Shown here: positions 7,528 through 38,155 of the stretch, one piece after another
How the letters are laid out: each line of letters begins with the position of its first letter
Numbering within the stretch: position 1 is the stretch's first letter
Assembly: GCF_013337045.2 (NCBI RefSeq)
Contig: NZ_CP118261.1
Location: 186,001 to 250,000 of the forward strand
DNA from: Agrobacterium vitis
GTDB lineage: Bacteria > Pseudomonadota > Alphaproteobacteria > Rhizobiales > Rhizobiaceae
Direction: 5' to 3'
Length of the DNA: 64,000 nt
Position numbers and translations under genes: made by a program
The notes under the pieces: generated by a model
Seen by the model: the letters and a program-made list of their open reading frames with translations, nothing else
The model's database searches: none
Told to the model about the DNA's origin: nothing

Positions 7528-8594
7528 GCCGCAGCCTCCGTCAGTCCATGCAGGCTGGCGCGTGGCAGGCTGGCCGCTTCCTGATCCGCAAACGGCCTGT
7601 CTGACAGGTTGATACATAGAAAATTCGGGCAGATCGGCAGCCAGGCGCGCCAGGTCAAATCGACGTTCCGGGCGCCATTGCGAAAGTCGATATGCACGCC
7701 GTCGAGGTTGAGCTGCACCACAACCTGGCGGCCGTCGCGCCACCGATAGCTCGCAACAGGGCGCAGCGCAGGGAGCGCGAACTTGAACGTCCCGCCGCCA
7801 GGCGTCAGTCTCGCCATCTCCACCATCTCGTCGCCCGCCAGAAAACCTGGATAGATCATCGACGGATGGGCCGAATGATAAAACCGATAGTCGAAATCGA
7901 CGGGAAGCTGCGGATGTCGATGCGCCTGCCAAGCGTCGTCATAAGTGCCCGCATATCTCTGGCGAAAATACCAGAATGGCGCCACCGGTCCGAGGCCTAG
8001 CGGCTTGCGTGCAAAAAATGGATCTGAATAGTCTTCTTCGGCGTCATCGATGCGTGGTGCTGGCACTGATGCGGATGACAACGCCTGTTCGGGCGTCGGC
8101 CTCGATACGCCTATCGGATTGCCGGGAACGCTGGGTGAACCCAGTCCTTCGATGTGGCCATCGCCGGCTGCCAATCGGTAATCAATCGGAACCTCGGTCG
8201 CCTCCTGTGGATCTGACAAGCGCCATTTGCCTGCGGTGCAGACCCAGGACCGTGTTCCTGTCACCCGAATGGCATGAGAAAGCTGTCCAACCTTAACGGC
8301 AACGAGCCAGTCCTGTTTGGCGCGCCCGTCCGGCGCATAGGCTGCACCGAGAAACGTGATGTCGCTTGCCGGTTTGAATGGAATGAGATCAGCAGCTTTG
8401 ATCAGAGGCGAGGTATGGGGATTGCCGTCATACTCATCCACCAGCACGATATCCTGCCGGTCACTGAGCTGAAGAGAGCCGTCCGCGTTGACCTGATAAC
8501 GTCCTCGCACCGCGATCACGCCCATATCCTCGCCATCGCGATGGGCTTGCTCGAAACCGATGGCAGCAAGGCGCGTGAGATTTTTTCCCAGCAT
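7524..8594 (-). CDS. DUF2169 T6SS effector adaptor
   Basis: A 356-residue DUF2169 protein (GVIAVRGRYQV near residue 27, IPFKPASDITFLGAAY near residue 73, PVAPFWYFRQRYAGTYDDAWQ near residue 205, and a C-terminal PICPNFLCIN). DUF2169 proteins are adaptors or chaperones that load PAAR/DUF4150 effectors onto VgrG. The order vgrG, DUF2169, DUF4150-toxin fits this exactly: 10 nt after vgrG and a 4-nt overlap with the effector. No signal peptide, so it acts in the cytoplasm before firing. Confidence 0.88.
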   Translation of the reverse strand: MLGKNLTRLAAIGFEQAHRDGEDMGVIAVRGRYQVNADGSLQLSDRQDIVLVDEYDGNPHTSPLIKAADLIPFKPASDITFLGAAYAPDGRAKQDWLVAVKVGQLSHAIRVTGTRSWVCTAGKWRLSDPQEATEVPIDYRLAAGDGHIEGLGSPSVPGNPIGVSRPTPEQALSSASVPAPRIDDAEEDYSDPFFARKPLGLGPVAPFWYFRQRYAGTYDDAWQAHRHPQLPVDFDYRFYHSAHPSMIYPGFLAGDEMVEMARLTPGGGTFKFALPALRPVASYRWRDGRQVVVQLNLDGVHIDFRNGARNVDLTWRAWLPICPNFLCINLSDRPFADQEAASLPRASLHGLTEAAA

Positions 8595-8604
8595 GCACGC
8601 GCCC

Positions 8605-14870: not shown

Positions 14871-14888
14871 ATCTGCAGATCTGCAGAT
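14871..14888. promoter_or_regulatory. tra box (TraR operator)
   Basis: The perfect 18-bp palindrome ATCTGCAGATCTGCAGAT differs from the known TraR tra box ATGTGCAGATCTGCACAT only at the symmetric third positions. It sits between the divergent traC and traA operons, where Ti plasmids carry their tra box, and a traR gene with intact ligand residues is in this window. TraR regulation of both operons is therefore strongly inferred. Confidence 0.88.
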
Positions 14889-20049: not shown

Positions 20050-20682
20050 ATGGTCGATGCTGCCCTTATCCAGCAATGCGCCGATCCTGCTCTAAAACCC
20101 GCAATCGTCGAGCAGTTCATCGAACGGGCAGGGTCCCAGGATCCACTCTTTATTACGGTTCGCTCTGGGAGCCGAGCCATTCTGGCACCTAAGCCCGCGA
20201 CACCGGATGATGCCCTGACGCTGATCCGTAACAACCTCGGCCGCAACACCGTGCGCGTTGGGCTAACTCAATATCCCGCCGGCCTCGGCATCCTGGAGGC
20301 CGGGCAACTGAAGCCCGACCTCGTCGATGCATGTACGAACATCAGCATGGGCACGGCGCTGTTTGCCAAGGTCTACCGGATCGTCACCAAATGGTATGGC
20401 AATCCAACCAACAACGATGTGCTGCCGCAGGTACTCGACGATGCCATCATGGCTTGGGAGACGGGGTATTTCGAGGGGGTGGCGGTGTTTCGGGCACCCG
20501 ATCCCAAAGACATAAAATTGCTAGAGCCAATCCAAAATTGGCCGCCGGAGCAGGCGACGGATGATGTCAATCATCAACGCCAGGGTCATGAACAATCGCA
20601 AATGTCAGACGCCGATGCCGAAAACGACCCCAATAGAGCAGAAATCCGCGTCGACCTTTCCGGAATTGGTCGTTCCAGATGA
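20050..20682 (+). CDS. traH: Conjugal transfer protein TraH
   Basis: 210 residues. The N-terminal domain ALIQQCADPALKPAIVEQFI is lytic-transglycosylase-like, followed by a VRVGLTQYPAGLGILEAGQL block and a Gln/Asp-rich tail. It closes the traAFBH operon, 11 nt after traB. Ti-plasmid TraH is comparable in length and position and is dispensable or weakly stimulatory for transfer. The next gene, luxR, begins only 39 nt downstream with its own GGAGG, so read-through expression is plausible. Confidence 0.9.
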   Translation: MVDAALIQQCADPALKPAIVEQFIERAGSQDPLFITVRSGSRAILAPKPATPDDALTLIRNNLGRNTVRVGLTQYPAGLGILEAGQLKPDLVDACTNISMGTALFAKVYRIVTKWYGNPTNNDVLPQVLDDAIMAWETGYFEGVAVFRAPDPKDIKLLEPIQNWPPEQATDDVNHQRQGHEQSQMSDADAENDPNRAEIRVDLSGIGRSR

Positions 20683-20721
20683 TCCAGCATCTGTGCTGAT
20701 TTCAATCAGAGGAGGAAATCA

Positions 20722-21462
20722 ATGGAACTTAAGCAACAGATGCTTTTGCTTTCTTCGTTGAAGACTGTGCGAAGGGCTGGCAGCGTCAATGACTTGAACG
20801 CAGCTATTTCTGAGGTGCGTGATCGGTACGGTTTCGCCCATTTGGTGTTTTTGCTGGTGAAGCCCGCAAACCACCCAAACATCGAGCCTCTGTTTTGTGC
20901 AACATATCCAGAGGAATGGACTTCTCTTTATCTTCGGAACAATTACCTGGAGAGTGACCCCGTCATTCAATTCTCACAGAAAGGCTTCCTTCCCTACGAT
21001 TGGTCCGGCATCGAACGGACCTCTGAAACAGCGCGTGCGTTTTTCAAGGAGGCGAACGCGTTCGGTGTTGGTGTCAATGGATTGACAGTCCCCATCAGAG
21101 GTCCCGGTGGTGAGCGCAGTCTTTTTTCAGCGACTTCGAATCTTCTGGGAAGAGAATGGCGCGCATTACGGACATCGAGCAAAAACGATCTTCTGGTCCT
21201 TTCCCATTTCTTTCACGAGAAAGTTCTCACGGTGTCGAGGTTACGAAAAACGAACGCATACCGCACGCTGTCCAAACGTGAGCAACAGTGCCTCCAACTG
21301 CTGGCCAGCGGCATCGTGCCCAAGCGCATTGCATCGCAGTTGCAGCTCTCGGAGAGTGCTGTCCGCCTTTATCTCAGATCAGGTCGAGGCAAACTCAATG
21401 CTCGGACAATGTATCAGGCGATCGCCAGAGCAAGCTTTCTGGAAATAATCCAGACGCGATAG
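20722..21462 (+). CDS. Solo LuxR-family quorum-sensing regulator
   Basis: 246 residues with both domains of an acyl-HSL receptor. The ligand pocket residues are kept: Tyr62, Trp66, Tyr70, Asp79-Pro80 and Trp94 (YPEEWTSLYL, ESDP, PYDWSG), and a GVNGLTVPI strand follows. The C-terminal LuxR HTH is KREQQCLQLLASGIVPKRIA with SESAVRLYLRSG. It is clearly not TraR. GGAGG stands 9 nt before the ATG. No luxI is nearby. It could be a CinR/BisR-like receptor; its targets are probably the next three genes. Confidence 0.9.
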   Translation: MELKQQMLLLSSLKTVRRAGSVNDLNAAISEVRDRYGFAHLVFLLVKPANHPNIEPLFCATYPEEWTSLYLRNNYLESDPVIQFSQKGFLPYDWSGIERTSETARAFFKEANAFGVGVNGLTVPIRGPGGERSLFSATSNLLGREWRALRTSSKNDLLVLSHFFHEKVLTVSRLRKTNAYRTLSKREQQCLQLLASGIVPKRIASQLQLSESAVRLYLRSGRGKLNARTMYQAIARASFLEIIQTR

Positions 21463-21522
21463 TCTGAGCAGACTTTTCACTGTCGTTCAATTTCGTCGTC
21501 CCGGAAATGCTGCGTTGTCCGT

Positions 21523-21546
21523 CAATCTATCGAAATCGATAGATTG
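21523..21546. promoter_or_regulatory. Candidate operator: perfect inverted repeat
   Basis: Two perfect 11-bp arms, CAATCTATCGA and TCGATAGATTG, flank a 2-bp centre, 61 nt after the luxR stop and 140 nt before the next ATG. There is no T-run, so it is not a terminator. The size and symmetry suit a dimeric regulator, most simply the adjacent LuxR protein; this is inferred. Confidence 0.6.
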
Positions 21547-21686
21547 CGCTGAGCCCTATTGTTGCGGACCTTGATCGCTCTGAATTGCCCCCTAGAGCCA
21601 CGCAATTGGCGAGGTGGTCATGCATCGAATTCGGCAACCGAATTGCTGTTGGCCCCTGCATTTGGCTCAGTATCAAGGAGCATGCA

Positions 21687-22766
21687 ATGGCTGACAGCCT
21701 GACCATAGAGGCGTGGAAAAAAGCGCCGCGTCTCAACGCATTTGCGTCCTTTTTCGAAAGAACGGCGAGTGGCAAGGGAGGGTCACCCGGTCTGGGTGTA
21801 CCAGAGCCTGCGATGAATCTGCTGTGTTACGATCTGGATTGTATGACATTCTGGGACACTCATCGGCGGTTATGGGGTCATTTCGACAGTCATTATTTTG
21901 CGAGCATCCCGTATAGATTGGAGGAAGAGTGCCGCCTTGCCGTTGCGATTCTGTCGTTTGGCCACAAGGCATGGGCGCGCAGTGGGCGTGCTGCGACAGT
22001 TTACACATTGGGTGCTGGTGCTGGCACCCTTGCCAGAGCGCTGGCAAGGCTTGGGGACGGACGCCTGAAAACGCTCAATTGCAGCCCGACGAACGGTAAT
22101 CGTGTTTGCTTTTTTGCCAAGCGAGGAAGCGATGATGCCAGCTTCTATCATGGTCCATTCTTTGAGCTGGATGATGAGCGCTATGCGTCGGATGAGGCTC
22201 TTCGTCCCTTCCGGGATGGATATGATATCCTGCTCGAGGACACGACGTTTCAGATGTATGGGCGCGACAGAGAAAATCAAACCGCCTTTATCGCACCAAG
22301 GCTTCGCGAAGGCGGGGTGTTGGTACAGGTGCAGAAGCTTAAGAACCCAAAACCAGACGTCTATCTTGCGCGTGAGATTCAAAAGGATGAGATCTTCAAA
22401 TCGAAGTTTTTTTCTACCGCGCAGATTATCGAAAAGCAGCGCGATGTGCTTGAGACGATGGTAGATTTTCAGGTCGATCTCGAAACCTCGGGATCTGCTC
22501 TCCAATCATACTTTCGGTACAGCGTTGTCACCTGGAACAGTGGGAATTTCTACACGATTGTCTCATCCAATTCCTTGGGCTCGATCCGCGATTTTTGCGC
22601 GTCGATGCTAAGGCCGGCGATACCAGAAGAGTTTTGCTATGAGCCGCTACCACGCATCATCATCAATGATGAAAAAGATCCCATCCGGGCAGACTGGACC
22701 TGGCGCACACCGCATTCAATTCGTGGCGAGGCCACAACGGGAACGTCCTCAGGTGTAAGTGAATGA
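21687..22766 (+). CDS. Methyltransferase-like protein (class I SAM fold)
   Basis: 359 residues from the ATG at 21687, with AAGGAG 7 nt upstream. A Rossmann SAM-binding loop is suggested by VYTLGAGAGTLARALA near residue 113, then the acidic YDILLEDTTFQMY near residue 182 and REGGVLVQVQKL near residue 212, as in class I methyltransferases. The C-terminal third is unrecognised. It overlaps the next gene by 4 nt (ATGA), so the two are a translationally coupled pair. Substrate unknown; the neighbours suggest small-molecule modification. Confidence 0.65.
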   Translation: MADSLTIEAWKKAPRLNAFASFFERTASGKGGSPGLGVPEPAMNLLCYDLDCMTFWDTHRRLWGHFDSHYFASIPYRLEEECRLAVAILSFGHKAWARSGRAATVYTLGAGAGTLARALARLGDGRLKTLNCSPTNGNRVCFFAKRGSDDASFYHGPFFELDDERYASDEALRPFRDGYDILLEDTTFQMYGRDRENQTAFIAPRLREGGVLVQVQKLKNPKPDVYLAREIQKDEIFKSKFFSTAQIIEKQRDVLETMVDFQVDLETSGSALQSYFRYSVVTWNSGNFYTIVSSNSLGSIRDFCASMLRPAIPEEFCYEPLPRIIINDEKDPIRADWTWRTPHSIRGEATTGTSSGVSE

Positions 22767-24175
22767 CACAGGAAGAAAAGCCATCCCACGTCAATTGCGA
22801 TCACGCGACGCTGGATGAGGTCATGCGGGCATTAACGTTTCTGATGCCCGATCTTACGCGATTCTGGGCGCTTCCGCTTAAACACTACGCATACACTGTT
22901 TATGATACAGTCATCAGAGGCGACGGTTCCGTGCGCAAGGATGCCATGGTGCGGCTACAAAGATGTATTGTGCGGGCTGCGTTGAGGTCTGGAGCAAGCG
23001 ATGAGGATGTAGAGCGTGTCAGCCACCAAATAGCACAATCGCCCATTATACAAACCGGACCTCACTGTCATTTGCTGGTCGAGCCTGATGCATTCTACAC
23101 ACATCTGTTCAGCGCGCTTGGCCTCGCAGCCCATGGTCTCCGATGGCACATATGGTACAGCGCCTCGACGGTGAAGTTTATTGAGCGCGCGAAAAAAGGT
23201 CCCGGATGGCTTTCGCTCAATGGAAATGCGGTGAATGTCTTCGGGTTGCCCCGCAGGCGTATGGATTCTTACAGCATTTGCGGACAAAATGGACCGTATC
23301 GGTTCGAATTGGCAGCACAGAAAGGCGATGAAGCCACCAATGCTCTGGCTTCGCAATTGAAGGCAATCTTGCCTGATCGCGCATTTCCATCTGCCGCAGA
23401 GGCAATCAAGACCGCCAATCAGATCCTCTGGCGGAGCTCATTTCCTCCGTCAATACGACTGTTGCAAGTTGATGATCTCGACGTTGCCGATCTGGTCGCC
23501 GACCATCTCGAAGACAGCGGATCATGGCTTTCGGCTCGTTTGAATGAGCATGACCCTTTCGCAAATAATATAATGCGGACGATGGATCATCTGAATGCGG
23601 GGGCATGGGCAGGATGGGTCCGCCCAACGACTGATTTCTTCTGGGGGCTACAGGATGGGCGGATATTCCCTCTGCATCTGGAACGAGGTGTCTGTTCAGG
23701 TGGGCCTTCGTCCACGTTTAAGGTCCGTTTTGAGCCTGAACACCTTGCGGCCGCGCTGCGCGAGCGCAAACTGGTGCCGAATCTTCTGACAACCTTTTTG
23801 ATCACCTCAATCCTCCCCGGCACCCGTGTGCTCGGCGGCTGTCGTCAGACTGTATATTACCCTCTTATGCGGTATCTGGTCGCGACGGCACTCCAATTCT
23901 CAGGTGATTGGCAACTCCTCGACACAATGCGTGCCGACAAGTGCTTGGGCGTATGGGGGCACCGCGTTTTGCGCCCAACCGTAGGCGATCCCTTGCTTGA
24001 AATCGAAAAACATGGATCAGTGATGCAGATTGCGGCCCAATACAGTGCTCGCACGCTTAAGGATTGCGCTGGAGACATGGCGAGTTTCACCAAGGATCCG
24101 ATTTGGGCGCAGATGTCAGCGCATATCCGGGATCAGGCCGTCAACCTGCAGTCTGCGGAGTGGCAATGGGTATAG
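22763..24175 (+). CDS. Unrecognised 470-residue protein
   Basis: 470 residues, soluble, no signal peptide. Distinctive segments are GPHCHLLVEPDAFYTHLFSA near residue 95, HIWYSASTVKFIERAKKGPGW near residue 130, VNVFGLPRRRMDSYSICGQNGPY near residue 155, WVRPTTDFFWGLQDGR near residue 290 and SILPGTRVLGGCRQTVYYPL near residue 350. The His/Cys/Trp pattern is enzyme-like, but I recognise no family. It is coupled to the methyltransferase-like gene by a 4-nt overlap and followed by a GNAT gene, so it is most likely part of a biosynthetic step under LuxR control. Confidence 0.7.
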   Translation: MTQEEKPSHVNCDHATLDEVMRALTFLMPDLTRFWALPLKHYAYTVYDTVIRGDGSVRKDAMVRLQRCIVRAALRSGASDEDVERVSHQIAQSPIIQTGPHCHLLVEPDAFYTHLFSALGLAAHGLRWHIWYSASTVKFIERAKKGPGWLSLNGNAVNVFGLPRRRMDSYSICGQNGPYRFELAAQKGDEATNALASQLKAILPDRAFPSAAEAIKTANQILWRSSFPPSIRLLQVDDLDVADLVADHLEDSGSWLSARLNEHDPFANNIMRTMDHLNAGAWAGWVRPTTDFFWGLQDGRIFPLHLERGVCSGGPSSTFKVRFEPEHLAAALRERKLVPNLLTTFLITSILPGTRVLGGCRQTVYYPLMRYLVATALQFSGDWQLLDTMRADKCLGVWGHRVLRPTVGDPLLEIEKHGSVMQIAAQYSARTLKDCAGDMASFTKDPIWAQMSAHIRDQAVNLQSAEWQWV

Positions 24176-24296
24176 GTTGCGCGCAAAGGCGAATTGTTGC
24201 CGATTGAGAAGGTTACGAAAATGTCTCCGACGGGTGGGTATCCCAATGGCCGGAAATGTCTTCGGGAGAGGCTCATTGAATATTAGGAGGCCGGTC

Positions 24297-24839
24297 ATGG
24301 AAGCCAAAACGCTGCTAATCCGATGCATTTCCCACGAAGACATTGCCGTTTTTCGACGTATTCGTCTGGAAGCTCTTGCATGCGAGCCTGCATCTTTTGC
24401 CAGCCGGTTTGAAGATTGGGAAAAGCTCTCAGATGACGATTGGCACCAAAGATTACAGGATCACATCTTTATCGCATTCAGCGATGATGAACCGGTTGGC
24501 ATTATGGGGCTGTCGCGACTTCGTCCAAAAAAGATGGCGCATCGCGCTACCCTTGTGATGGTATATATTCGAAAGCGCTTTCGTGGCACTGGTCTTTCCA
24601 GAAAACTCCTTGGTGCAGTTATCGATTTTGCCAAAGCCAAGGGAATTTTACAGATTGAGCTCGGCGCAAGTGCTGACAACCTGGAGGCGTTGCGCTTTTA
24701 CCGGCGCAATGGATTCACAGACATCGGCCTCAATCCGCGTGGGTTTCTCGATGAGGGCAGGGCTGTCGATGAAGTGCGCATGGCGCGTCTGTTCAATGAA
24801 TATCCCAGTCATTGCCAGAGCGGTTCCTTGAGCAGGTGA
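24297..24839 (+). CDS. GNAT-family N-acetyltransferase
   Basis: 180 residues from the ATG at 24297, set by GGAGG 7 nt upstream. The GNAT core is clear: FIAFSDDEPVGIMGLSRL (strand pair), MVYIRKRFRGTGLSRKLL (acetyl-CoA loop, Arg-x-x-Gly-x-Gly type), then IELGASADNLEALRFYRRNGF. Acts on an unknown amine or acyl acceptor. A 121-nt gap separates it from the preceding gene, so it may share the operon or have a weak promoter of its own. Confidence 0.88.
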   Translation: MEAKTLLIRCISHEDIAVFRRIRLEALACEPASFASRFEDWEKLSDDDWHQRLQDHIFIAFSDDEPVGIMGLSRLRPKKMAHRATLVMVYIRKRFRGTGLSRKLLGAVIDFAKAKGILQIELGASADNLEALRFYRRNGFTDIGLNPRGFLDEGRAVDEVRMARLFNEYPSHCQSGSLSR

Positions 24840-24919: not shown

Positions 24920-26047
24920 CTATTCGGACCGAGCCGATGTCCGGTCGCGCAGAAGGGCGAGCAATGCCGGATTGATGTAAAGGTTCTCTCGTCCCGCCTT
25001 CACTTCTTTGAGCAGGCCGTTGTCAGCGAGCGCTTTCAGGTAGACGGATGCCGCCTGACGCTTGGCAATGCCAGCATCTACGACGTCGCTGATCCGGCAA
25101 TAAGGATTGACAAAGATCACTTCAGCCAGTTCACGCGTGTAGATTTTCGGGAGATCACGACGGATGCGTTCAGCTGTTTGGTCAAGCAAATCGCGAATGG
25201 CTCGAATCCGTGATGTTGACCAATCGGCTGTGTCACGGACAGCTTCTAGCATGTAGAGGATCCAGTCTTCCCAGGCCCCCTTGGTGGTGACTGCCAGAAG
25301 TCGCTCATAGTAGTCGCGCTTGTTGCCTATGATGTATCGACTTAGGTAGAGCACAGGGATATCCAGCAGGCCTTTATCAACGAGGTAGAGAAGGTTTAGC
25401 ACGCGCCCAGTACGGCCGTTGCCGTCTATGAAAGGATGTATGGCCTCAAATTGGTAGTGCATCACGGCAAGTCGGATCAACGGATCTATATCTTCTGCTT
25501 CGTGAATGTATCGCTCCCAGTTGGCCAGCTTGTTTCGTAGCAGGTCCTGTCCTTCCGGCGGGGTGTAGATCACCGTACCTGTCGCCTCATTCATCAGTGC
25601 CGTGCCGGGTGTCGAGCGGATATCCAGATCAACGCCCTTGATCCTGCGGCAGACAGCGACCGCAGTGGACGTCGATACCGGGCGCTCTTTGAGCGATTGA
25701 AATCCTTCATTGAGGGCTGTCCGATACCGCAGTGCCTCCTTCGTTGCAGGATCGGCCTGGTCTCCAGTTTCGTTGGCGAAGCGGAACAGTCGATCAGTCG
25801 TGGTGACGATATTCTCTATTTCCGAACTCGCCTGAGCCTCAAGCAACGGGATCGAGTTGATAAGGACGGACTGATTGGGGATGAGTTGTCCTGATATGCG
25901 GAGTTCGGCAAGTGACGCCCTCGCCGCAATGCAGGCTTTGAGGACTGCCTTCGTTTCGACGTCGTCTTTCGGGGGCAGCGCAGGGAGATCATTATAGGGG
26001 AACTCCGGGCGAAATATCATGTCGATCAATCCTGGTTTTATCGACAT
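24920..26047 (-). CDS. Fic-family AMP-transferase
   Basis: 375 residues from the ATG at 26047. The catalytic Fic motif HPFIDGNGRTGR sits near residue 205. The N-terminal helix ASSEIENIVTT (about 74-80) fits the class II inhibitory motif (S/T)xxxE(G/N), so the enzyme should hold itself inactive. A C-terminal winged-helix domain follows (YCRISDVVDAGIAKRQAASVYLKAL in part). Fic enzymes transfer AMP from ATP to target proteins. An ATG at 26020 (MIFRPEF) is an alternative start, and a dyad repeat lies exactly between the two starts. No separate antitoxin gene is seen. Confidence 0.9.
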   Translation of the reverse strand: MSIKPGLIDMIFRPEFPYNDLPALPPKDDVETKAVLKACIAARASLAELRISGQLIPNQSVLINSIPLLEAQASSEIENIVTTTDRLFRFANETGDQADPATKEALRYRTALNEGFQSLKERPVSTSTAVAVCRRIKGVDLDIRSTPGTALMNEATGTVIYTPPEGQDLLRNKLANWERYIHEAEDIDPLIRLAVMHYQFEAIHPFIDGNGRTGRVLNLLYLVDKGLLDIPVLYLSRYIIGNKRDYYERLLAVTTKGAWEDWILYMLEAVRDTADWSTSRIRAIRDLLDQTAERIRRDLPKIYTRELAEVIFVNPYCRISDVVDAGIAKRQAASVYLKALADNGLLKEVKAGRENLYINPALLALLRDRTSARSE

Positions 26048-26118
26048 GTGGCATCGCACATGTCGTCAGCATCGACATATCAGAAAATCGTGTCGATCAA
26101 ATTGGTTTTTAACGACAT
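26019..26118. repeat. Cluster of ATGTCG/CGACAT dyads at the fic start
   Basis: Imperfect hairpin ATGTCGATCAA...TTTTATCGACAT at 26019-26047, a perfect dyad CGACATGTG-6nt-CACATGTCG at 26042-26065, ATGTCG-7nt-CGACAT at 26060-26078, and TGTCGATCAA...TTTTTAACGACA at 26091-26117. The motif is thus repeated in head-to-head pairs across 100 bp covering the fic start. Likely operator sites for an unknown repressor, or short mobile palindromes. Confidence 0.65.
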
Positions 26119-28090: not shown

Positions 28091-28333
28091 TCACGATTTT
28101 GACTTCTTGAAATAAATTCCAACTCCCTCGTCATTGAAGAATTCAATCCCCACTGTTTGAAAAGCCGAAATTATGCTCGTCAGATTGTTGCTTATGGGCA
28201 TGTGCGCCCCACGTTCGAAGTCAGCAATTGTCTGACGAGACACGTTAGCTGCCTTAGCAAGCTCCGCTTGACTCCAGCCCAGCATGGCCCGTGCACCACG
28301 GCATTGCTCAATTGTAATATTCTTGCTAGCCAA
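28091..28333 (-). CDS. XRE-family HTH regulator
   Basis: 80 residues. The HTH is RAMLGWSQAELAKAANVSRQTIADFERGAHMP (residues about 14-45, given here in part), followed by the common tail AFQTVGIEFFNDEGVGIYF. Such small regulators act as dimeric repressors in plasmid, phage or toxin-antitoxin loci. It faces away from the ABC transporter operon at 28864 and may regulate itself or nearby genes. Start is the ATG at 28333. Confidence 0.88.
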   Translation of the reverse strand: MASKNITIEQCRGARAMLGWSQAELAKAANVSRQTIADFERGAHMPISNNLTSIISAFQTVGIEFFNDEGVGIYFKKSKS

Positions 28334-28863: not shown

Positions 28864-30462
28864 ATGATGAAATTGCAAAATCCGCTTCGCCGGGTTGTTC
28901 TAAAAGCTTCGTTGATCTCAGTTGCATCTTCGTGCTTGCCATGGCGACCCGCATGGGCACAGCAGCCTCTTCGGATCGCAACGTCCTATAAGCTGATGAC
29001 GCTCGATCCGCATTACGCAAACCTCAACGAAAATACTGCATTGCTTTCCCATATCTATGACCGGCTGGTCTATCAGGACGAGCGTTTGGATTTGAAGCCA
29101 GGTCTTGCGGTCTCCTGGCGTGCCCCGACTGAGACGCAATGGGAATTCACGCTAAGGCCGAATGTCCGTTTTCATGATCACTCGCCCTTCACCGCAGATG
29201 ATGTCGTCTATACGATTGAGCGGATAAGGGATTTTGTAAAATCACCCAGTGGAGGTTTTCGTTCCTATGTGAGCTGGATCAAGGCAGTTTCAGCATCTGA
29301 CCCTCTCACTGTCGTCATTGATACGAATGGCAATATTCCCAATTTACCACTGTTGTTGTCTTCGATTTTTATAATGCATCGGGCGGGGCAGGGGTTCCAG
29401 ACAACGGATGAACTCAACACAGCGCGCGCTTCAGTCGGGACGGGGCCTTACAGGTTTCAGAACTGGAGTTCCGGCGAGGCATTGCACCTTGCCAGAAATG
29501 ACGATTACTGGGGTGACAAGCCAGTTTGGGCGGCTGTTTCCTTCCGGATCATTGAAAGCCCTGCCGCACGTGTTGCCGCTCTCTCGACGGGTGAGGTTGA
29601 TGTGGCGGATGCGATCCCTGCGCGTGATGTCGCCTCCCTGAAACAGCGTGGTGCCAAAATTGCCAACATTGGTGCCGCCCGCGTCAATTTTTTGCAATTT
29701 GACGTGGCCCGCGAGACCTTACCCGGCGTCACGAGCAAATCAGGCGGGACAATCGCTAATCCTTTTCAAAATCCGTTGATACGGCGTGCTCTAGCATTGG
29801 CAACAGATCGCGGCATTCTGGTTGAGAAGATTCTCGCAGGCTACGGCACACCCGCATCGCAGATTTTCCCCAATGGTCTGCCCGGCACGTCGGCACATCT
29901 GCAACCAGAAGCGCCAAATTATGTTGAAGCCAAAGCGCTGCTCGCCAAGGCGGGCTTTCCAGATGGCTTTAATCTCGTTCTTGCAGGACCCGCTGGTCGC
30001 TATCCGGGAGATAGCGAGAGTCTGCAGGCAATTGCTCAAAGCTGGGCACGTATCGGCGTGTCGGCTCAGCCAGCGGTGTCGCCGTTCTCGGTCTTCAACA
30101 CCAAGCGATCTGCAGGTGAATATGCCGTCTGGTATGGCGGAGCCTCTGGCGAGGCGGTCGACATCATTCTCGATGCGCTGCTTGCATCACCCGATCCTGA
30201 GCGGGGTACCGGAGCGTTGAACTTTGGACATTATCGGAACAAGACTTTTGATGAGATGCTTTTGAAGGCAGAGGGTCTACAGGAAGGCCCTGAGCGCAAC
30301 AAAGCTCTGGCGGAGGCGACCGACTTTGTCATGGCTGACCAGCCGATCATTCCCCTCTATCACTTCCATCACATCATCGGTTACGGTCCGCGCGTCGCGT
30401 CTTATGTGGCCCATCCTCGCGGCTGGACCACCGCAATGCAAACACTTGCGGCGACGGAGTAG
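28864..30462 (+). CDS. Peptide/opine ABC transporter substrate-binding protein (SBP_bac_5)
   Basis: 532 residues. The N-terminus RRVVLKASLISVASSCLPW-x-PAWAQQ is an export signal with an Arg pair that could be Tat-type. The mature part has family blocks KLMTLDPHYANLNENTALL, WEFTLRPNVRFHDHSPFTADDVVY near residue 100 and SVGTGPYRFQNW near residue 190. It binds oligopeptides or opine-like compounds in the periplasm and heads a four-gene transporter operon, ending 5 nt before the first permease. ATG at 28864 chosen over the adjacent ATG at 28867. Confidence 0.93.
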   Translation: MMKLQNPLRRVVLKASLISVASSCLPWRPAWAQQPLRIATSYKLMTLDPHYANLNENTALLSHIYDRLVYQDERLDLKPGLAVSWRAPTETQWEFTLRPNVRFHDHSPFTADDVVYTIERIRDFVKSPSGGFRSYVSWIKAVSASDPLTVVIDTNGNIPNLPLLLSSIFIMHRAGQGFQTTDELNTARASVGTGPYRFQNWSSGEALHLARNDDYWGDKPVWAAVSFRIIESPAARVAALSTGEVDVADAIPARDVASLKQRGAKIANIGAARVNFLQFDVARETLPGVTSKSGGTIANPFQNPLIRRALALATDRGILVEKILAGYGTPASQIFPNGLPGTSAHLQPEAPNYVEAKALLAKAGFPDGFNLVLAGPAGRYPGDSESLQAIAQSWARIGVSAQPAVSPFSVFNTKRSAGEYAVWYGGASGEAVDIILDALLASPDPERGTGALNFGHYRNKTFDEMLLKAEGLQEGPERNKALAEATDFVMADQPIIPLYHFHHIIGYGPRVASYVAHPRGWTTAMQTLAATE

Positions 30463-30467
30463 GGACC

Positions 30468-31445
30468 ATGGCTTTGCTTTCCGTTGCATCCGCCAGGCTC
30501 TCTCAAGCCTGCCTTCTTCTGTTTGTCATGTCGTTGATTGGTTTCATTGGCGTTCATAGCATTGGCAATCCGGTCTTCAACATTGTCAACATCGAAACCG
30601 CCACGCCAGAGGATATCCGGCGTGCGACAATCGCACTGGGATTGGATCAACCTATCTGGCACCAGTATCTTGTCTTTATGAGCAACGTTCTGCGCGGAAA
30701 TTACGGAACGTCGTATATTTATCATCTTCCCGCTTTTGATCTGGTCATGAGCAAGTTGCCGGCGACGCTGGAGCTGGCGTGCATGGCAATGTTTATCGCA
30801 GCCCCCGTCGGGATTGGCCTCGGACTGCTGGCTGGACGGCAAAAAGGCACAACTTTTGATCGGACAGTTTTGAAAGCCTGCATCTTTGCTCTCAGCCTCC
30901 CATCCTTCTGGCTGAGCATGATGTTGATCTTGGGCGGAGCCATCCTGACAGGTTGGTTTCCTGCCGGAGGACGCGGTGCGACGGTGAGTGCTTTGGGGAG
31001 TGATTGGAGTGTCCTGAGTTTTGACGGCCTTCGACATATGGTTCTGCCCGTACTTGCACTTGCAATCCCGAACATTGCCTTGATCGCGCGGCTTTCCCGA
31101 TCCGGCACCATCGAAGTCGAGAACCAGGATTTTACGCGATTTTGCCGCGCCAAAGGGCTCTCGCCACAACGGGTCCTGATGCGGCACACGCTTCCAAACA
31201 TCAGTGTTCCGATCGTCACGATCATTGGCCTGCAATTTGGTGGCATGCTGGCTTTTGCCGTGGTGGTTGAAACGATTTTCGCATGGCCGGGAGTTGGCAA
31301 GTTGTTGATCGACTCTATCCAGCTTCTCGACCGGCCTGTGGTTATGGCGACCCTGTCCTTCATCTCCGTGGCGTTCGTCGGACTGAATGCCATGGTCGAT
31401 CTCTACCAAGCCGTGCTCGATCCGCGCGTGCGCCTCGCCTCTTAA
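30468..31445 (+). CDS. Peptide ABC transporter permease (DppB-like)
   Basis: 325 residues, six membrane segments. The signature DLDQP-type motif appears as ALGLDQPIWHQYLVF, then YGTSYIYHLPAFDLVMSKLPATLELA and the permease loop FTRFCRAKGLSPQRVLMRHTLPN. Forms the inner-membrane channel with the next gene product. Confidence 0.93.
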   Translation: MALLSVASARLSQACLLLFVMSLIGFIGVHSIGNPVFNIVNIETATPEDIRRATIALGLDQPIWHQYLVFMSNVLRGNYGTSYIYHLPAFDLVMSKLPATLELACMAMFIAAPVGIGLGLLAGRQKGTTFDRTVLKACIFALSLPSFWLSMMLILGGAILTGWFPAGGRGATVSALGSDWSVLSFDGLRHMVLPVLALAIPNIALIARLSRSGTIEVENQDFTRFCRAKGLSPQRVLMRHTLPNISVPIVTIIGLQFGGMLAFAVVVETIFAWPGVGKLLIDSIQLLDRPVVMATLSFISVAFVGLNAMVDLYQAVLDPRVRLAS

Positions 31446-31457
31446 AGGAAATCCGCC

Positions 31458-32345
31458 ATGAAAACTGATATTCTCAGGGCACTCAAAAGGCCAATTAGCG
31501 GGCTTCCGTGGCGGCAGGTGATGACTGCATCCAAAATCCTGCTTGCAATTTATGTGCTGCTTGCGCTTGCCGCACCGCTGATCGCTCCGCAAAACCCCTA
31601 TGATCCATTGCAGATTTTTGGATGGGAGGCTTCTTCTTCTCCCGGCACGCGGGGGAGTGGCGGTTATCTCTACATGCTTGGAACGGACGGGCTCGGGCGT
31701 GATATCGCCAGCACGATCCTATATGGCTTGCGCATCAGCTTGGTGGTGTCCGTCACAAGCGCTGCCATTGCTGCTGTGATCGGGCTGACGGCCGGTGTCA
31801 GTGCTGCCTATTTTGGCCGTTGGGTGGACGTGACCATCATGCGTCTCGTCGATCTTCAACTCAGCCTTCCTACAATCCTTGTTGCTCTCATCGCCATCGT
31901 CACGCTCGGACCTGGTGTGGACCGCATCATTCTGGCGTTGGTCATTGTGCAATGGGCGACGTATGCAAGGTTGGCGCGCGGCGTCGCACTCAGTGAGACA
32001 CGCAAGCCTTATATGGATGCAGCCAGATTGATGCGCCTGCCAACGTTCCGGATTATCTTCCGCCATCTTCTGCCCAACAGCATAGCGCCTGCGGTGACAT
32101 TGTTCCCCATTGAAGTAGGGCATGCCATCGCACTGGAAGCAACCTTATCCTTTTTGGGTTTGGGTGTTCCAATCGACAAACCCTCTCTCGGGTCCGCCGT
32201 CGCCAATGGCTTTCAATACCTCTTGACCGGCCAATACTGGATCAGCGTGTTTCCAGGTCTTGCCCTCTTTGGTCTGATCGCCAGCATTAATTTTGTCGGT
32301 GAAGATATTCGTCACCGTCTCGATCCAAGGAGCCTTTCCGTATGA
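31458..32345 (+). CDS. Peptide ABC transporter permease (DppC-like)
   Basis: 295 residues. It has an N-terminal membrane helix, then LGTDGLGRDIASTILYGLRISL (family motif) and the EAA-type loop YMDAARLMRLPTFRIIFRHLLPN. AAGGAAAT precedes the ATG. The stop overlaps the ATPase start by 4 nt (ATGA). Confidence 0.93.
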   Translation: MKTDILRALKRPISGLPWRQVMTASKILLAIYVLLALAAPLIAPQNPYDPLQIFGWEASSSPGTRGSGGYLYMLGTDGLGRDIASTILYGLRISLVVSVTSAAIAAVIGLTAGVSAAYFGRWVDVTIMRLVDLQLSLPTILVALIAIVTLGPGVDRIILALVIVQWATYARLARGVALSETRKPYMDAARLMRLPTFRIIFRHLLPNSIAPAVTLFPIEVGHAIALEATLSFLGLGVPIDKPSLGSAVANGFQYLLTGQYWISVFPGLALFGLIASINFVGEDIRHRLDPRSLSV

Positions 32346-34006
32346 TACGTGATCTGGAAAAGCCACCTCTTCTTAAGGTGGAGAACCTGACTCTGTGCCG
32401 AGACTCTCATGCCAACTCCGCGACGATTCTCAGTGGTGTGAGTTTCGAGCTTGGTCGCGGTGAAATCCTCGGTATCATTGGGGAGTCAGGTGCCGGTAAG
32501 TCGACATTGGGATATGCTGTCCTTGGACTGCTGCCACCAGAATTGCGGCAGGTCTCAGGCAAAATCGAATTGGATGGCATATCGCTCTCATCAGTTGATG
32601 GGCAATGGAAGACCATTCGAGGACGGCGGATATCTGCGGTTTTCCAAGATCACACTGCATCACTCGACCCCCTTATGTCCGTTGGTACGCAGATCGAAGA
32701 AACGGTCATGGCCAACGACAGTTCAGCGACGAGATGGCAGGCGCGTGCCCGTGCTATCGAGCTTCTGGACCGCGTCGGGATTACAGATCCACGGCAGCGT
32801 TTTGGAAATTATCCGCATCAATTTTCGGGTGGGCAAAGACAACGTGTGGTTGTCGCCATCGCCCTTGCCGGATCGCCAGATATCATCGTGGCCGATGAAC
32901 CAACCTCTGCTTTGGATGCGAGTGTCCAAAAGCAAATCCTCAAACTCCTTCGAACTCTTGTCGATGAGACGGGCGTGTCCATCCTCCTCGTTACCCATGA
33001 TATGGGGGTCGTTTCCGAAATAACCGACAGGGTTCTGGTCATGAGAGCAGGGCAGGTGGTGGAACAGGGTCTGACGGCAGTCATTCTCGATGCGCCCCGA
33101 AAAGACTATACGCGCAGCCTGCTTGCTGCGGTTCCGCGGCTGCGGGTTTCCGCGCCTTCGCCAAATGTCGATGGGAATGGAGCAATATCCAGCGCTGAAG
33201 GGCATGGGGGCGACACGTCTCTCACGGTGCAGGGTGTCTCCAAATCATTCTCGCGGCACGGTTTCTCTCTTCGCCTTGGTCAACAGACGGCAAGGTTTGC
33301 CTTAAGCGACGTCAGCATACAACTTCCGTATGGCGTTATCACCGGCATTGTCGGCGAAAGCGGGAGCGGCAAGACCACTCTGGGCCGGATTGTCGCCGGG
33401 CTAGACATCGCGACAACAGGAACGGTGACAATCGGAAACAACAATTTCGACGTCTCAAAAAGTGGCTATCGAACCGGGCTCCTCGGGCGTGTGCAGATGG
33501 TCTTTCAGGACCCTGCCATGTCGCTAAACCCGAGAATGACCATCAATGAGATATTGCATGAGAGTCTTGGTTTTGGTGCGCAAATGCGTGCTGATCAGAC
33601 TTCTGCCAATGTCCAAGGAATGATGGATCGGCTTGGTCTCGCGAGGAGCCTTCTCAGCCGCTATCCGCATCAACTGTCGGGCGGTCAGAAGCAGCGTATT
33701 TGTATCGCCCGGGCACTTTTGGCGCGACCGCAAGTCATCGTTGCCGATGAGCCGACGTCGGCGCTCGACGTATCCGTACAGGCGGAAATCATCAAGCTTC
33801 TTAAAGAGAGCATCACCGAGCATGAAATTACGATGCTCTTCATTTCTCATGACCTTGCGGTGGTGCAGCAGCTTTGCCGTGACGTCTACATCTTGAAAAA
33901 CGGTCGAGTTGAAGATTACGGCGCTTGTGATTTTGTCTTCTCGAACTCGAGCAATCTTTACACACGCACTCTTATTGATGCCCGGCCGCGCCTGTTCGCG
34001 CACTGA
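32342..34006 (+). CDS. Peptide ABC transporter ATPase, DppD-DppF fusion
   Basis: 554 residues containing two complete ABC ATPase domains in one chain. Domain 1: Walker A GESGAGKST near residue 49, signature FSGGQRQR, Walker B IIVADEPTSALD. Domain 2: GESGSGKTT near residue 339, LSGGQKQR, VIVADEPTSALD. Each ends with the oligopeptide-type C-terminal strand (e.g. DYTRSLLAAVPRL). Energises the peptide permease; the fused form is common in rhizobial transporters. Confidence 0.95.
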   Translation: MIRDLEKPPLLKVENLTLCRDSHANSATILSGVSFELGRGEILGIIGESGAGKSTLGYAVLGLLPPELRQVSGKIELDGISLSSVDGQWKTIRGRRISAVFQDHTASLDPLMSVGTQIEETVMANDSSATRWQARARAIELLDRVGITDPRQRFGNYPHQFSGGQRQRVVVAIALAGSPDIIVADEPTSALDASVQKQILKLLRTLVDETGVSILLVTHDMGVVSEITDRVLVMRAGQVVEQGLTAVILDAPRKDYTRSLLAAVPRLRVSAPSPNVDGNGAISSAEGHGGDTSLTVQGVSKSFSRHGFSLRLGQQTARFALSDVSIQLPYGVITGIVGESGSGKTTLGRIVAGLDIATTGTVTIGNNNFDVSKSGYRTGLLGRVQMVFQDPAMSLNPRMTINEILHESLGFGAQMRADQTSANVQGMMDRLGLARSLLSRYPHQLSGGQKQRICIARALLARPQVIVADEPTSALDVSVQAEIIKLLKESITEHEITMLFISHDLAVVQQLCRDVYILKNGRVEDYGACDFVFSNSSNLYTRTLIDARPRLFAH

Positions 34007-34095
34007 GGGGCGTTTGACCACTCCAGGTCCGCCAGCCTGCCTACCATAACCACGTTCCAGAGATCAGCGGCGACTGCTGCTTCGATAGGTGACAT

Positions 34096-35328
34096 ATGAC
34101 CGAAAGTTTCACATTGGCGATGACAGGCCAATCCCTCATAAAACACGATATCCGTAGCATTCGAAGCCAAGGATTTCAGCAGGTCTGCAATCTACTCATG
34201 AAAGCAGATTTGGCGTTTACCAATTTCGAGGGAACGATCCGAGGAGCTCATGGCGGGTGGCCTCTCAAAGGATCTTTTTTTGGCTGCAGTGAACCGATTG
34301 TTCTCGATGCACTCAAGGCCATCGGTTTCGGGGCCTTGTCTCTTTCCAACAACCACGCTTTCGATCTTGGTCCTTCTGGCGTTTTGTCGACGTTGGAAGA
34401 GGTCGAAAAGCGGAGCTTTCTTCACGCAGGCCTTGGACGTAACCATGCAGAGGCTTCGCTTGCCACAAAACGACTAATCGGTCAGAAACGCGTTGCACTC
34501 GTTGCGATGGACGGTGGCCCTGGTCCGGATTTTATGTACGCTTCAAACGCTGGCCAAGATCGTCCTGCTCGGCCCGGCGTGAACAGACTTCGATTGTCTC
34601 AGGTCATCGAAGTCGACGATACGGCATTCGAGCAGCTTTGCTCCCTCCGCCAGCAGGTAGGCTACACAGCTATCGATCTTACTAATGACAGTCAGCCGGA
34701 TGATCCGCCCTCCGGTGATCCGAATGAAGTGAATCTGGCACGTGCGGCTTTCAGGCGATCCCACCGGTTCGGGAAGAGCGTGAAAATCGACGAAAAAGAT
34801 ATGACATGCAATCTAAATGCGATTGCATCTGCCGCAGCAGACGGTTGCCTTGTCATTGCGTATTTGCACCATCATCATTGGGCAACGAATTGGTATGAGG
34901 TACCTGATTGGGTTGGTGGGGTTGCAAGACGGTGCATTGATGCGGGTGCAGCTATGTTTGTCAGCCACGGAGCGCCCGTGCTTCAGCCGGTGGAGATCTA
35001 TCGTCGCCGTCCGATCTTTTACAGTCTTGGTAATTTCATCTTCCATGTGAAGTCGGAAGCCTCGTCATGGCGTGCTCCAGAAGTTTGGGAAAGTGTTGTA
35101 GCTCTCTGCGATTTTGGACAAGATAATTGCCTTAACGACATTACTTTTCATCCGGTTATAATTGGCGGTGAGGATGCGTTGGGGCATAAAGTCCTCGAAG
35201 GCAGACTGGTTCCGCATCGCGCAAGTGGTGTAAGCGCTGAGAGGATTTTGGGGCGATTCAAGGCGCAGTCGGCAAAACTGGGCGCGCAAATTACTCTGGT
35301 TGATAATGCCGGTATCTTACGTGTGTAG
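34096..35328 (+). CDS. CapA-family metallophosphatase-like protein
   Basis: 410 residues with the CapA/PgsA fold: AMTGQSLI near the start, DLAFTNFEGT near residue 37, LSLSNNHAFDLG near residue 82, AYLHHHHWATN near residue 255, MFVSHGAPVLQ near residue 292 and FYSLGNFIF near residue 311. The His/Asp/Asn sites are those of calcineurin-like metalloenzymes. Classical CapA assembles poly-gamma-glutamate, but no capsule synthase is here and there is no signal peptide. With a peptide transporter and peptidase T on either side, a catabolic role on gamma-glutamyl or unusual peptides is a reasonable guess. Confidence 0.85.
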   Translation: MTESFTLAMTGQSLIKHDIRSIRSQGFQQVCNLLMKADLAFTNFEGTIRGAHGGWPLKGSFFGCSEPIVLDALKAIGFGALSLSNNHAFDLGPSGVLSTLEEVEKRSFLHAGLGRNHAEASLATKRLIGQKRVALVAMDGGPGPDFMYASNAGQDRPARPGVNRLRLSQVIEVDDTAFEQLCSLRQQVGYTAIDLTNDSQPDDPPSGDPNEVNLARAAFRRSHRFGKSVKIDEKDMTCNLNAIASAAADGCLVIAYLHHHHWATNWYEVPDWVGGVARRCIDAGAAMFVSHGAPVLQPVEIYRRRPIFYSLGNFIFHVKSEASSWRAPEVWESVVALCDFGQDNCLNDITFHPVIIGGEDALGHKVLEGRLVPHRASGVSAERILGRFKAQSAKLGAQITLVDNAGILRV

Positions 35329-35421
35329 ATCTCATTTTGAGCCGTGAGATTAAGCATTGACACAATTGTAAAAGAAAATATTCCTACAATGCGCCACTCC
35401 CACAGGCATCGAGGTTTTTGA

Positions 35422-36690
35422 ATGTATATTCCTGAATATGAGGAGATAGGCCTTCGAAGTGAACTTGTTGAACGGTTTTTCCGGTATGTTGGCATAGAAA
35501 GCCAGAGTGACGCTGCTTCAACGCAGTTGCCGTCTTCAAAGGGTCAGCGAGCACTCGCAGAGTTGCTGGCACAGGAGATGAGAGGCCTTGGTCTTGATAA
35601 CGTTGTTATCGATAAAAATGCTATCGTCACGGGCGTCAAACGGGGCAGCGTTGTGGATGTACCGAGGATAGGATTCATCGCACATCTCGATACTGTAGAT
35701 GTCGGTTTGTCATCGAGTATTCGGCCCCAGATCAAGTTTTTCGATGGCCATGATGTGTGCCTTAATACCCAAAGAGACATCTGGTTGCGGCTCAAAGAGC
35801 ATCCCGAGATCCTTCCGTGGCAAGGAGAGGACATTATCTTTGGTGATGGAACCAGCGTGCTCGGAGCGGATAATAAAGCAGCGATATCGGTCATTATGAC
35901 ACTGCTTGCACGGATCGGCCGAGTACAGGCTCATGGCGATATTGTTGTCGCTTTCGTTCCAGATGAAGAGATCGGTTTGCGAGGCGCAAAGGCGCTCGAC
36001 CTCAGCCGGTTTCCTTGTGACTTCGCTTACACTATCGATTGTTGCGAACTTGGCGAAGTCGTGATTGAGAATTTTAACGCAGCGTCGGCTGAAGTCATCT
36101 TTACTGGCGTCAGCGCACATCCGATGTCTGCAAAGGGCGTGCTGGTTAATCCCTTACGAATGGCGTTTGATTTCATCTCCCATTTTGATCGTAATGACTC
36201 GCCTGAAGGTAGCTGTGGTCGGGAAGGATATTTCTGGTTCAAGGAGCTGTCAGCCAACGAAAGCGAAGCGCACCTCAAAATTATGGTCCGCGATTTTGAC
36301 AAGGCTCGATTTGACCAACGGAAACGGGATGTCCAAGAGGTTGCTGCCCATATCAGGTCACAATATCTCACGGGATCCCTCATATGCGACCTATCTGATA
36401 CCTATCATAATATTGCTGACTATTTTTCCAAAGATAACCGATCAGTGGAATTGCTGTTTGGCGCTCTCGGAAAACTTGGCATCGAAAAAAAACTCATTGC
36501 TATGCGTGGGGGAACAGACGGATCAGTCCTGTCGGCTCGTGGTTTACCCACTCCGAATTTTTTCACAGGCGCGTACAATTTCCATTCGCGGTTTGAGTTC
36601 CTGCCGGTTGCAGCATTCGAAAAGTCTTACGAAACGGCCCTTACAATCTGCATTCTTGCGGCAGAGCAGGGCTGGACGACGCATCCGTGA
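35422..36690 (+). CDS. pepT: Peptidase T-like M20 metallopeptidase
   Basis: 422 residues. Metal-binding motifs are in order: GFIAHLDTVDV near residue 74, LGADNKAAISV near residue 150, FVPDEEIGLRGA near residue 178, AYTIDCCELGEV near residue 200 and a C-terminal AMRGGTDGSVLS near residue 358. All residues expected for a di-zinc M20 tripeptidase are present. It removes N-terminal residues from tripeptides in the cytoplasm, which fits peptides brought in by the upstream ABC system. It lies 93 nt after the CapA-like gene. Confidence 0.92.
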   Translation: MYIPEYEEIGLRSELVERFFRYVGIESQSDAASTQLPSSKGQRALAELLAQEMRGLGLDNVVIDKNAIVTGVKRGSVVDVPRIGFIAHLDTVDVGLSSSIRPQIKFFDGHDVCLNTQRDIWLRLKEHPEILPWQGEDIIFGDGTSVLGADNKAAISVIMTLLARIGRVQAHGDIVVAFVPDEEIGLRGAKALDLSRFPCDFAYTIDCCELGEVVIENFNAASAEVIFTGVSAHPMSAKGVLVNPLRMAFDFISHFDRNDSPEGSCGREGYFWFKELSANESEAHLKIMVRDFDKARFDQRKRDVQEVAAHIRSQYLTGSLICDLSDTYHNIADYFSKDNRSVELLFGALGKLGIEKKLIAMRGGTDGSVLSARGLPTPNFFTGAYNFHSRFEFLPVAAFEKSYETALTICILAAEQGWTTHP

Positions 36691-37450: not shown

Positions 37451-38155
37451 TCAGATTAGATTTTTTCGAACCGCGATTGCGGTCAAGTGGGCTACGGTAT
37501 GCACGTCGAAACGTTTCATAGCTTCGGCAATTTTAACGCGTACTGTATTATATTTAACGCCTTCAATGACCGCCACTTCCTCCATTGTTTTACCGACCGC
37601 TATCCATCGCAGATATGTTGCTTCTTTCGGATCCAGATAGGCAGGATCTTCGATTTGAGGTCTTGCGCGCAGAAAAGTAAATCGGGTGTGGAGCTGCCCG
37701 ACTGCAGATGCAGCGGAAACAGCATCAATCTCGCGACGAAGATTGATTTCGCGCTTTTCCGAAGCGACGGTAAACATGGAAATCGAGCCGTTCGCTGTTT
37801 TTACAGGAATGGTAATGCCAGAACGGATTCCAAATTCGGCCGCGTGGGCATAGAATTTACGTTCGTCCTTTGAAATGCGCGTTCGTTCCAATTCTCCCGC
37901 CCATACGAAGACCCGTTTAATTGCTTTCGCACGCTTAACGACAGGATCAAGCGACGGATAATTTAGCTGAAAATATATGGATCGCCATTCTCGATTGTAG
38001 TTCGTGATTGCTAGCGTACGTCCAGGCTGAAGGTTAAGGTACGCATAGCTGTGAAAGCCCATCTGATTGGTAAGGTCGGCCAGCGCATCCTCAATCTTGT
38101 TTTGAGTACCTTCAATTGCGCTAATATCAATGAGTTTATCCAACCAGCGCTGCAT
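37451..38155 (-). CDS. traR: Quorum-sensing transcriptional activator TraR
   Basis: 234 residues, the exact length of Ti TraR. Ligand residues of TraR (3-oxo-octanoyl-HSL pocket) are kept at the same numbers: Tyr53, Trp57, Asp70, Trp85 and Thr129. The C-terminal HTH reads [19 protein letters not shown] and [17 protein letters not shown]. TraR with AHL binds the tra box at 14871. It begins [16 protein letters not shown], close to Ti TraR. It is not embedded in an opine operon on the same strand, unlike classical Ti plasmids, so what turns it on is not obvious. Confidence 0.96.

Follow-up and report, generated by a model that had tools for sequence, protein, structure and literature searches.

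A putative LuxR-controlled biosynthetic operon with a companion peptide-type importer on a plasmid of Agrobacterium vitis

Genes and features of the locus

The stretch of Agrobacterium vitis DNA analysed here, referred to as the window, comprises 64,000 nucleotides (nt) of contig NZ_CP118261.1 (positions 186,001 to 250,000; assembly GCF_013337045.2). It carries a cassette of four genes, which follow the conjugation gene traH and encode a LuxR-type receptor, a methyltransferase-like protein, a protein of 470 amino acids (the 470-aa protein), and a GNAT N-acetyltransferase. Genes for an ATP-binding cassette (ABC) importer, a CapA protein, and peptidase T (PepT) are located farther downstream. 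We consider it somewhat probable that these genes represent a two-module plasmid system, composed of a LuxR-switched biosynthetic operon and an uptake/processing block. The cassette region contains the following features:

20050..20682, + strand: traH (TraH_2, 316 bits), last gene of the tra run
20722..21462, + strand: LuxR-type receptor, 246 aa (Autoind_bind, 101.7 bits, and GerE, 44.5 bits, both over cut-off)
21523..21546: 24-bp dyad CAATCTNNCGAAWTCGNNAGATTG in the luxR–methyltransferase intergenic region, predicted LuxR operator of the methyltransferase–470-aa operon
21687..22766, + strand: methyltransferase-like protein, 359 aa, predicted CmoA/CysG/BelI-type fold
22763..24175, + strand: 470-aa protein, predicted BshC/class-I aminoacyl-tRNA-synthetase fold, putative amino-acid ligase
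24297..24839, + strand: GNAT N-acetyltransferase, 180 aa from the ATG at 24297 (Acetyltransf_1, 66 bits)

The end of traH (20682) and the start of luxR (20722) are separated by a 39-nt gap, and an ATGA overlap joins the stop of the methyltransferase-like gene to the start of the 470-aa gene. The initial annotation had described a LuxR protein with a whole acyl-homoserine lactone (AHL) pocket at this distance past traH, followed by the methyltransferase-like, ATGA-coupled 470-aa, and GNAT genes; both statements were borne out. The pocket residues Y62, W66, D79, and W94 are invariant in all 21 aligned LuxR rows, the window row included.

Distribution and gene neighbourhood

Tblastn searches revealed the 470-aa gene on 150 of 72,556 plasmid records, with at least 80% of the query covered in 138 cases. 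Among 394 Rhizobiaceae genomes, 38 had a match at E 0.001 and 29 possessed a full-length gene of at least 39% identity; this class limit, as well as that of at least 47% for CapA (with the two-piece match of genome G283 included), was set by us. A single-sequence scan of genome contigs gave no match, but an alignment-based scan did find matches. The protein search yielded 296 hits in total and listed 120; alignments A1 and A4 comprise, respectively, 52 and 43 of these 120.

The closest plasmid seen, NZ_CP081842 of A. vitis F2/5, has the same gene order, and its four proteins are 85–94% identical to those of the window. On the symbiotic plasmid p42d of Rhizobium etli, relatives of about 44% are located near a related methyltransferase gene, an AraC gene, a gene of the major facilitator superfamily (MFS), and a CapA gene. 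Neighbourhoods were counted in a named set of 48 Rhizobiales loci (L092–L139), with three Legionella loci excluded from the counts. A same-family methyltransferase accompanies the 470-aa gene in all 48 loci, being of the window type in 41 and of a divergent type in seven, so that the gene order is not a matter of chance. Thus, the idea of a conserved unit, which the initial annotation made dependent on finding this order in other Rhizobiales, stands. Among the 41 loci with a window-type methyltransferase, luxR is present within 7 kb in 31 and a GNAT gene within 4 kb in 25.

Distant relatives of the 470-aa protein occur in other gene contexts. Those of Legionella (L140–L142; 23–24%) belong to a compact gene set, and the neighbours in L140 encode an Asp/Glu racemase, an ATP-grasp protein with an L-amino-acid ligase domain, a weak TauD match, a flavin reductase, and two MFS proteins. 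A relative of 21% identity near the end of a linear plasmid of Streptomyces sp. NBC_01423 (L083) is accompanied by ATP-grasp, amidinotransferase, decarboxylase, methyltransferase, MFS, and FemAB-like genes. Kinship of the Legionella and Streptomyces proteins to the 470-aa family was backed by hhalign (99.9 and 98.3%, respectively). Racemase, ATP-grasp, and similar neighbours fit a peptide-like small-molecule pathway.

Several further observations concern the integrity of the unit. Some Rhizobiaceae harbour a subfamily of the 470-aa protein at 26–29% identity (L056–L061), for which no methyltransferase partner was matched and in which a GNAT gene adjoins the 470-aa relative in L058 and L061. 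The reading frame at L058:11385–12296 was considered as a concealed methyltransferase partner of the 27% subfamily and rejected, as it showed no similarity. Directly after the GNAT gene, the window encodes a Fic protein of the SoFic type (24920–26059, − strand; Pfam; PADLOC SoFic, 399.5 bits). The Fic gene is kept in A. vitis F2/5 (L002) and VAR03-1 (L086) and was unmatched beside the cassette in the other loci compared. In the latter strain (NZ_AP023270, L086:9001–10941), a cassette remnant was found: only the final 31 residues of the 470-aa gene are matched (93.5%), and GNAT and Fic genes come after them. An IS21 gene lies close by, and the unit looks as if it was truncated by insertion or deletion.

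The two enzymes of the operon

In agreement with the initial annotation, which listed the 470-aa gene as unrecognized, its product matched no family of Pfam or NCBIfam. Comparison of the family profiles with PDB gave weak, unrelated matches (best E 0.12 and 0.52). According to structural modelling, the 470-aa protein appears to have the BshC/class-I synthetase fold and to be of the amino-acid-ligase type. Sequence motifs had also suggested BshC, which we do not count as a prediction independent of the fold result. The BshC model PF10079 had no matches at E 0.001 in the A. vitis genome and 299 Pseudomonadota; the controls matched in 3 of 14. Among 44 relatives of the methyltransferase-like protein, five matched the CmoA model of NCBIfam, with a best E of 0.004.

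LuxR receptor and luxI genes

The cassette LuxR did not reach the cut-off of the NCBIfam TraR equivalog (61.1 of 250 bits). The plasmid's own TraR is a separate receptor:

37451..38155, − strand: TraR (NF010444, 397.1 bits, cut-off 250)

No luxI gene is located beside luxR at the window locus, which therefore is not a canonical LuxI–LuxR pair. Four Autoind_synth genes over cut-off were detected in the whole genome, one of them on the contig of the window (C3:272611) beside trb genes. The absence of luxI claimed in the initial annotation is thus true of the neighbourhood only, not of the genome.

In 5 of 48 related loci, luxI-like genes were present inside the fetched flanks. Locus L102 (Agrobacterium arsenijevicii KFB 330; 8178–8957) holds luxI directly before the methyltransferase gene, the place of luxR in other loci; this luxI is 58% identical to that of the window plasmid, and the dyad is absent from the locus. 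The luxI genes of L106 and L136 reached the Autoind_synth cut-off, and the luxI-like gene of L153 is a tblastn match. A relative of the window LuxR lies beside luxI in L106 (48%) and L153 (40%); near the luxI of L136, none was matched.

Predicted operator

A dyad of at least 20/24 precedes 37 of the 41 window-type methyltransferase genes of the named set, the four N positions being counted as matches in all scores out of 24. When the dyad was compared with 200 shuffles per locus in 26 loci, the best match was above all shuffles in 23; in L046 it was equalled by 1 of 200, and L067 and L084 were at chance. These sets of 26 and 41 loci overlap, with several identical contigs, and are not independent samples. 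The dyad occurs once at up to three mismatches in the 6,084,750-base genome (reversed control, 0).

In 43 fetched loci (834,992 bases), all dyads of at least 20/24 were located at the methyltransferase gene save one in L072, which precedes a luxI. Among L092–L142, the dyad was also found before luxI in L106 (55 nt; same contig as L072) and L136 (56 nt). A third genome (L153) has a 21/24 dyad about 95 nt before its luxI-like tblastn match. Since the site is common to luxI and the biosynthetic operon, it looks like a LuxR box. LuxR would bind to the dyad, and, as judged from these sequences, very probably controls the methyltransferase–470-aa operon through it.

Importer, CapA, and peptidase T

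The conserved unit extends past position 24839, since ABC importer, CapA, and PepT genes (28867–36690) co-occur with the cassette. In the window, this block begins four kilobases downstream of the cassette and includes the following genes:

28867..30462, + strand: substrate-binding protein (SBP) of family 5, peptide/opine type (SBP_bac_5, 256.6 bits)
30468..31445, + strand: permease 1, open reading frame (ORF) with 71–82% relatives beside other importer genes in many loci
31458..32345, + strand: permease 2, ORF with relatives at related loci
32342..34006, + strand: double ATPase of the Dpp/Opp/Gsi type
34096..35328, + strand: CapA (PGA_cap) protein similar to the peptide epimerase MslH (PF09587, 158.8 bits; PDB 8gq9, E 1.5e-29)
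35422..36690, + strand: peptidase T (TIGR01882, 331.4 bits, over the cut-off of 285.75)

The nearest solved relatives of the SBP are HbpA, then AgaA and AccA among others. Of the 48 named loci, 24 have the SBP gene within 12 kb, 18 CapA, and 4 PepT; these numbers are lower bounds because the flanks were 10 kb. Window-type CapA was present in 36 of 394 genomes, including 28 of the 29 with a full 470-aa gene (Fisher p 1.5e-34). Compared by genus, the co-occurrence was 15/15 versus 20/109 (p 1.5e-14). The sole CapA-less genome of the 29, G344, has an SBP gene (76%) near a contig end, and the contig stops within the ATPase gene (L099). Eight genomes contain CapA and lack the full 470-aa gene. Three of them (G100, G108, and G176) have a close importer block, with a 28% relative of the 470-aa gene in G176 and a fragment of it in G108; the block was not matched in the remaining five.

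A small ORF encoding an XRE-like helix-turn-helix (HTH) protein (28091–28333, − strand) is located between cassette and importer and may be a regulator dedicated to the latter. In L084, L133, L137, and L146, the importer block is likewise flanked by small HTH genes. An anti-phage role was considered for the cassette and rejected: PADLOC models gave no matches at E 0.01 for the methyltransferase-like, 470-aa, GNAT, and CapA proteins, and weak CARF matches of LuxR (E 8.6e-6) fall on its DNA-binding end.

Link to conjugation genes

In 9 of the 48 named loci, luxR follows traH directly (gap 77–139 nt); in four others, 3.2–4.9 kb separate the two. Together with the window and strain F2/5, the directly linked rows number 11; all fall into one 13-row group (SH-aLRT 99%, two changes needed), the other two rows of which are L102 and L105. 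This quick tree, calculated without bootstrap, comprised 48 rows, namely the window, L002, and 46 of the 48 named loci, with L127 and L135 excluded for broken frames. As regards gene position, the hitching of the cassette to the tra operon proposed in the initial annotation thus holds for the window and one branch but is not supported as a general feature. A possible TraR site for the traA-F-B-H run was detected upstream:

14871..14888: tra-box-like palindrome before traA (16/18)

The score refers to an 18-position tra-box consensus. The next best match in the window (45913–45930, 15/18) lies at the start of an ORF, so that the margin of the site before traA is small. In the traH-linked branch, TraR may raise LuxR by read-through.

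Proposed function and alternative explanations

Our proposal starts from gene order, co-occurrence, the conserved dyad, including its copies before luxI-like genes of relatives, and both folds, as seen by sequence or model. The LuxR protein would bind an AHL produced elsewhere in the same cell or supplied by neighbours and would act through a single dedicated dyad of 24 bp to switch an operon building an amino-acid-conjugated or peptide-like metabolite. Here, the 470-aa protein would ligate the amino acid at the expense of ATP, methylation or another alkylation of an acid partner would fall to the CmoA/CysG-like protein, and the GNAT, in loci having one, would acylate an amine. Uptake of the compound, or of a product of its breakdown, would be the task of the peptide/opine-type ABC importer, and what is imported would then be processed by peptidase T and the CapA/MslH-like protein. 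We infer these reactions, the product, and its export and re-import.

A small-molecule pathway with amide-bond formation is probable; that the importer, CapA, and PepT take up and process this very compound is as likely as not. The gene set, which a cell-density sensor probably switches on, is present on many plasmids of root-associated bacteria, and its two unfamiliar enzymes seem to produce a peptide-like compound, with the peptide-type importer apparently taking it up. The LuxR-regulated small-molecule pathway suggested in the initial annotation is judged the best reading, and its gene order recurs elsewhere. Making or altering a signal, though conceivable, is not indicated, as the 470-aa protein has a predicted fold of the amino-acid-ligase type. 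The cassette was also called undescribed, and no earlier description of the unit turned up in the accessible parts of a mostly non-subscription literature. LuxR-controlled biosynthetic operons as such are known; the one proposed here adds a companion importer and a pair of enzymes not described so far.

A further, tentative possibility is a plasmid-borne, quorum-gated private-good system, in which dense populations make an amino-acid conjugate and the same plasmids or genomes hold the genes for its retrieval. The BshC-fold ligase and the CmoA/CysG-like enzyme would then yield a new class of conjugates, with the importer, the CapA/MslH-like enzyme, and the peptidase dedicated to it. Producers are almost never found without the importer, and importer blocks also occur where the full producer gene is missing.

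Several results weigh against the two-module system. A good dyad is missing in 4 of the 41 loci (L100, L102, L118, and L121), and L122 (at 207) and L128 (within the methyltransferase gene) each have one 20/24 dyad that lies neither at a methyltransferase start nor at luxI. The best site ahead of the importer in the window scores 18/24. LuxR was absent within 7 kb in 10 of 41 loci and GNAT in 16 of 41, and importer genes are within 12 kb in only half of the loci. The Fisher tests take no account of kinship. No exporter was recognized among the window ORFs of the unit, not every one of which was scanned, and two of the 48 named loci have a related MFS gene close by. PF10079 misses the 470-aa protein at E 0.001, and a fold is no proof of function.

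The importer–CapA–PepT block could alternatively serve independent nutrient uptake and merely share plasmids with the LuxR operon. The distance between block and operon, which ranges from less than 1 kb to tens of kb, agrees with this, as do the blocks of G100, G108, and G176, which lack a full 470-aa gene, and the lack of a dyad before the block in the window. However, co-occurrence is one-sided, with CapA in 28 of the 29 genomes and SBP in the 29th, and luxI, with or without luxR, lies directly behind importer/CapA genes in L106, L136, and L153. Independent uptake is rather unlikely. It is unlikely, too, that the product of the operon is an intracellular thiol of low molecular weight or a similar cofactor, in analogy to bacillithiol (BshC) or mycothiol (MshC ligase and MshD GNAT), with the importer a mere frequent neighbour. 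No glycosyltransferase or deacetylase was seen in the unit, GNAT is not constant, and LuxR-type control, a peptide importer, CapA, and PepT are unexpected for a housekeeping thiol; moreover, the distant relatives sit in natural-product-like clusters. Action of the CmoA-like enzyme and the class-I-synthetase-like protein on tRNA or translation, not on a free metabolite, is very improbable.

The cassette might also serve conjugation, being a late gene of the tra run that tunes transfer like other hypothetical genes near tra. The 39-nt gap to traH fits this explanation, as do the lack of a listed terminator-like site on the + strand in 20400–22000, the tra-box-like site before traA, and the prediction that 120 of the 150 plasmids with the 470-aa gene are conjugative. 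Moreover, rcgA and rcgR, two hypothetical genes between the DNA transfer (Dtr) and mating pair formation (Mpf) regions, do affect transfer, according to PMC9601222. On the other hand, traH directly precedes luxR in one branch only, many flanks hold the cassette without a matched tra gene, and a high conjugative share is expected from plasmid location alone, the 120/150 standing without a background rate. Service to conjugation as a general role was therefore rejected and, as an explanation of the cassette, is quite improbable. RcgA and RcgR themselves were ruled out as the identity of the cassette genes by Pfam and published descriptions. The latter (PMC9601222, PMC13055273) present RcgA as a membrane protein and assign an alpha/beta-hydrolase domain to RcgR.

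For the two-module system, a stretch that had no annotation thereby becomes open to chemical testing. An enzyme family absent from Pfam and NCBIfam can now be assigned a predicted fold and linked to a probable regulator with its predicted operator, as well as to an importer as partner. The cassette may also reveal targets of some of the many LuxR solos of Rhizobium, which PMC13133039 leaves for a second paper.

Comparison with known systems

The 470-aa protein resembles bacillithiol synthase BshC (PF10079; PDB 4wbd) in its modelled fold but shares 8% identity with it in the 4wbd alignment, and the partner genes are unlike. The methyltransferase-like protein has the predicted fold of CmoA, the carboxy-S-adenosylmethionine synthase, but matched none of the NCBIfam families. 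O-methyltransferases CysG and BelI of cystargolide and belactosin possess a His-His-Asp metal motif, as described in PMC11408123. The His-His pair is absent from the window protein, which thus lacks this motif. The cassette LuxR shares LuxR domains and AHL-pocket residues with LuxR solos and TraR, but is 22% identical to the TraR of the window and has a different predicted operator. RcgA and RcgR likewise come from rhizobial plasmids, where hypothetical genes close to the tra region encode them; however, Pfam showed neither a six-helix membrane protein nor an alpha/beta-hydrolase domain among the four cassette proteins, the membrane helices being judged without a dedicated prediction. The CapA protein matches the model of MslH, a member of the CapA family (PMC9266682), over about 314 residues as well as PDB 8gq9, but scores 124.6 bits against the NF038314 cut-off of 700, and no lasso-peptide gene was recognized.

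As with siderophores and opines, importer-only holders of the cassette system exist beside producers. If the private-good system is real, it would parallel the opine idea with a product of bacterial origin and would be distributed across the Rhizobiaceae, with a related version on R. etli p42d.

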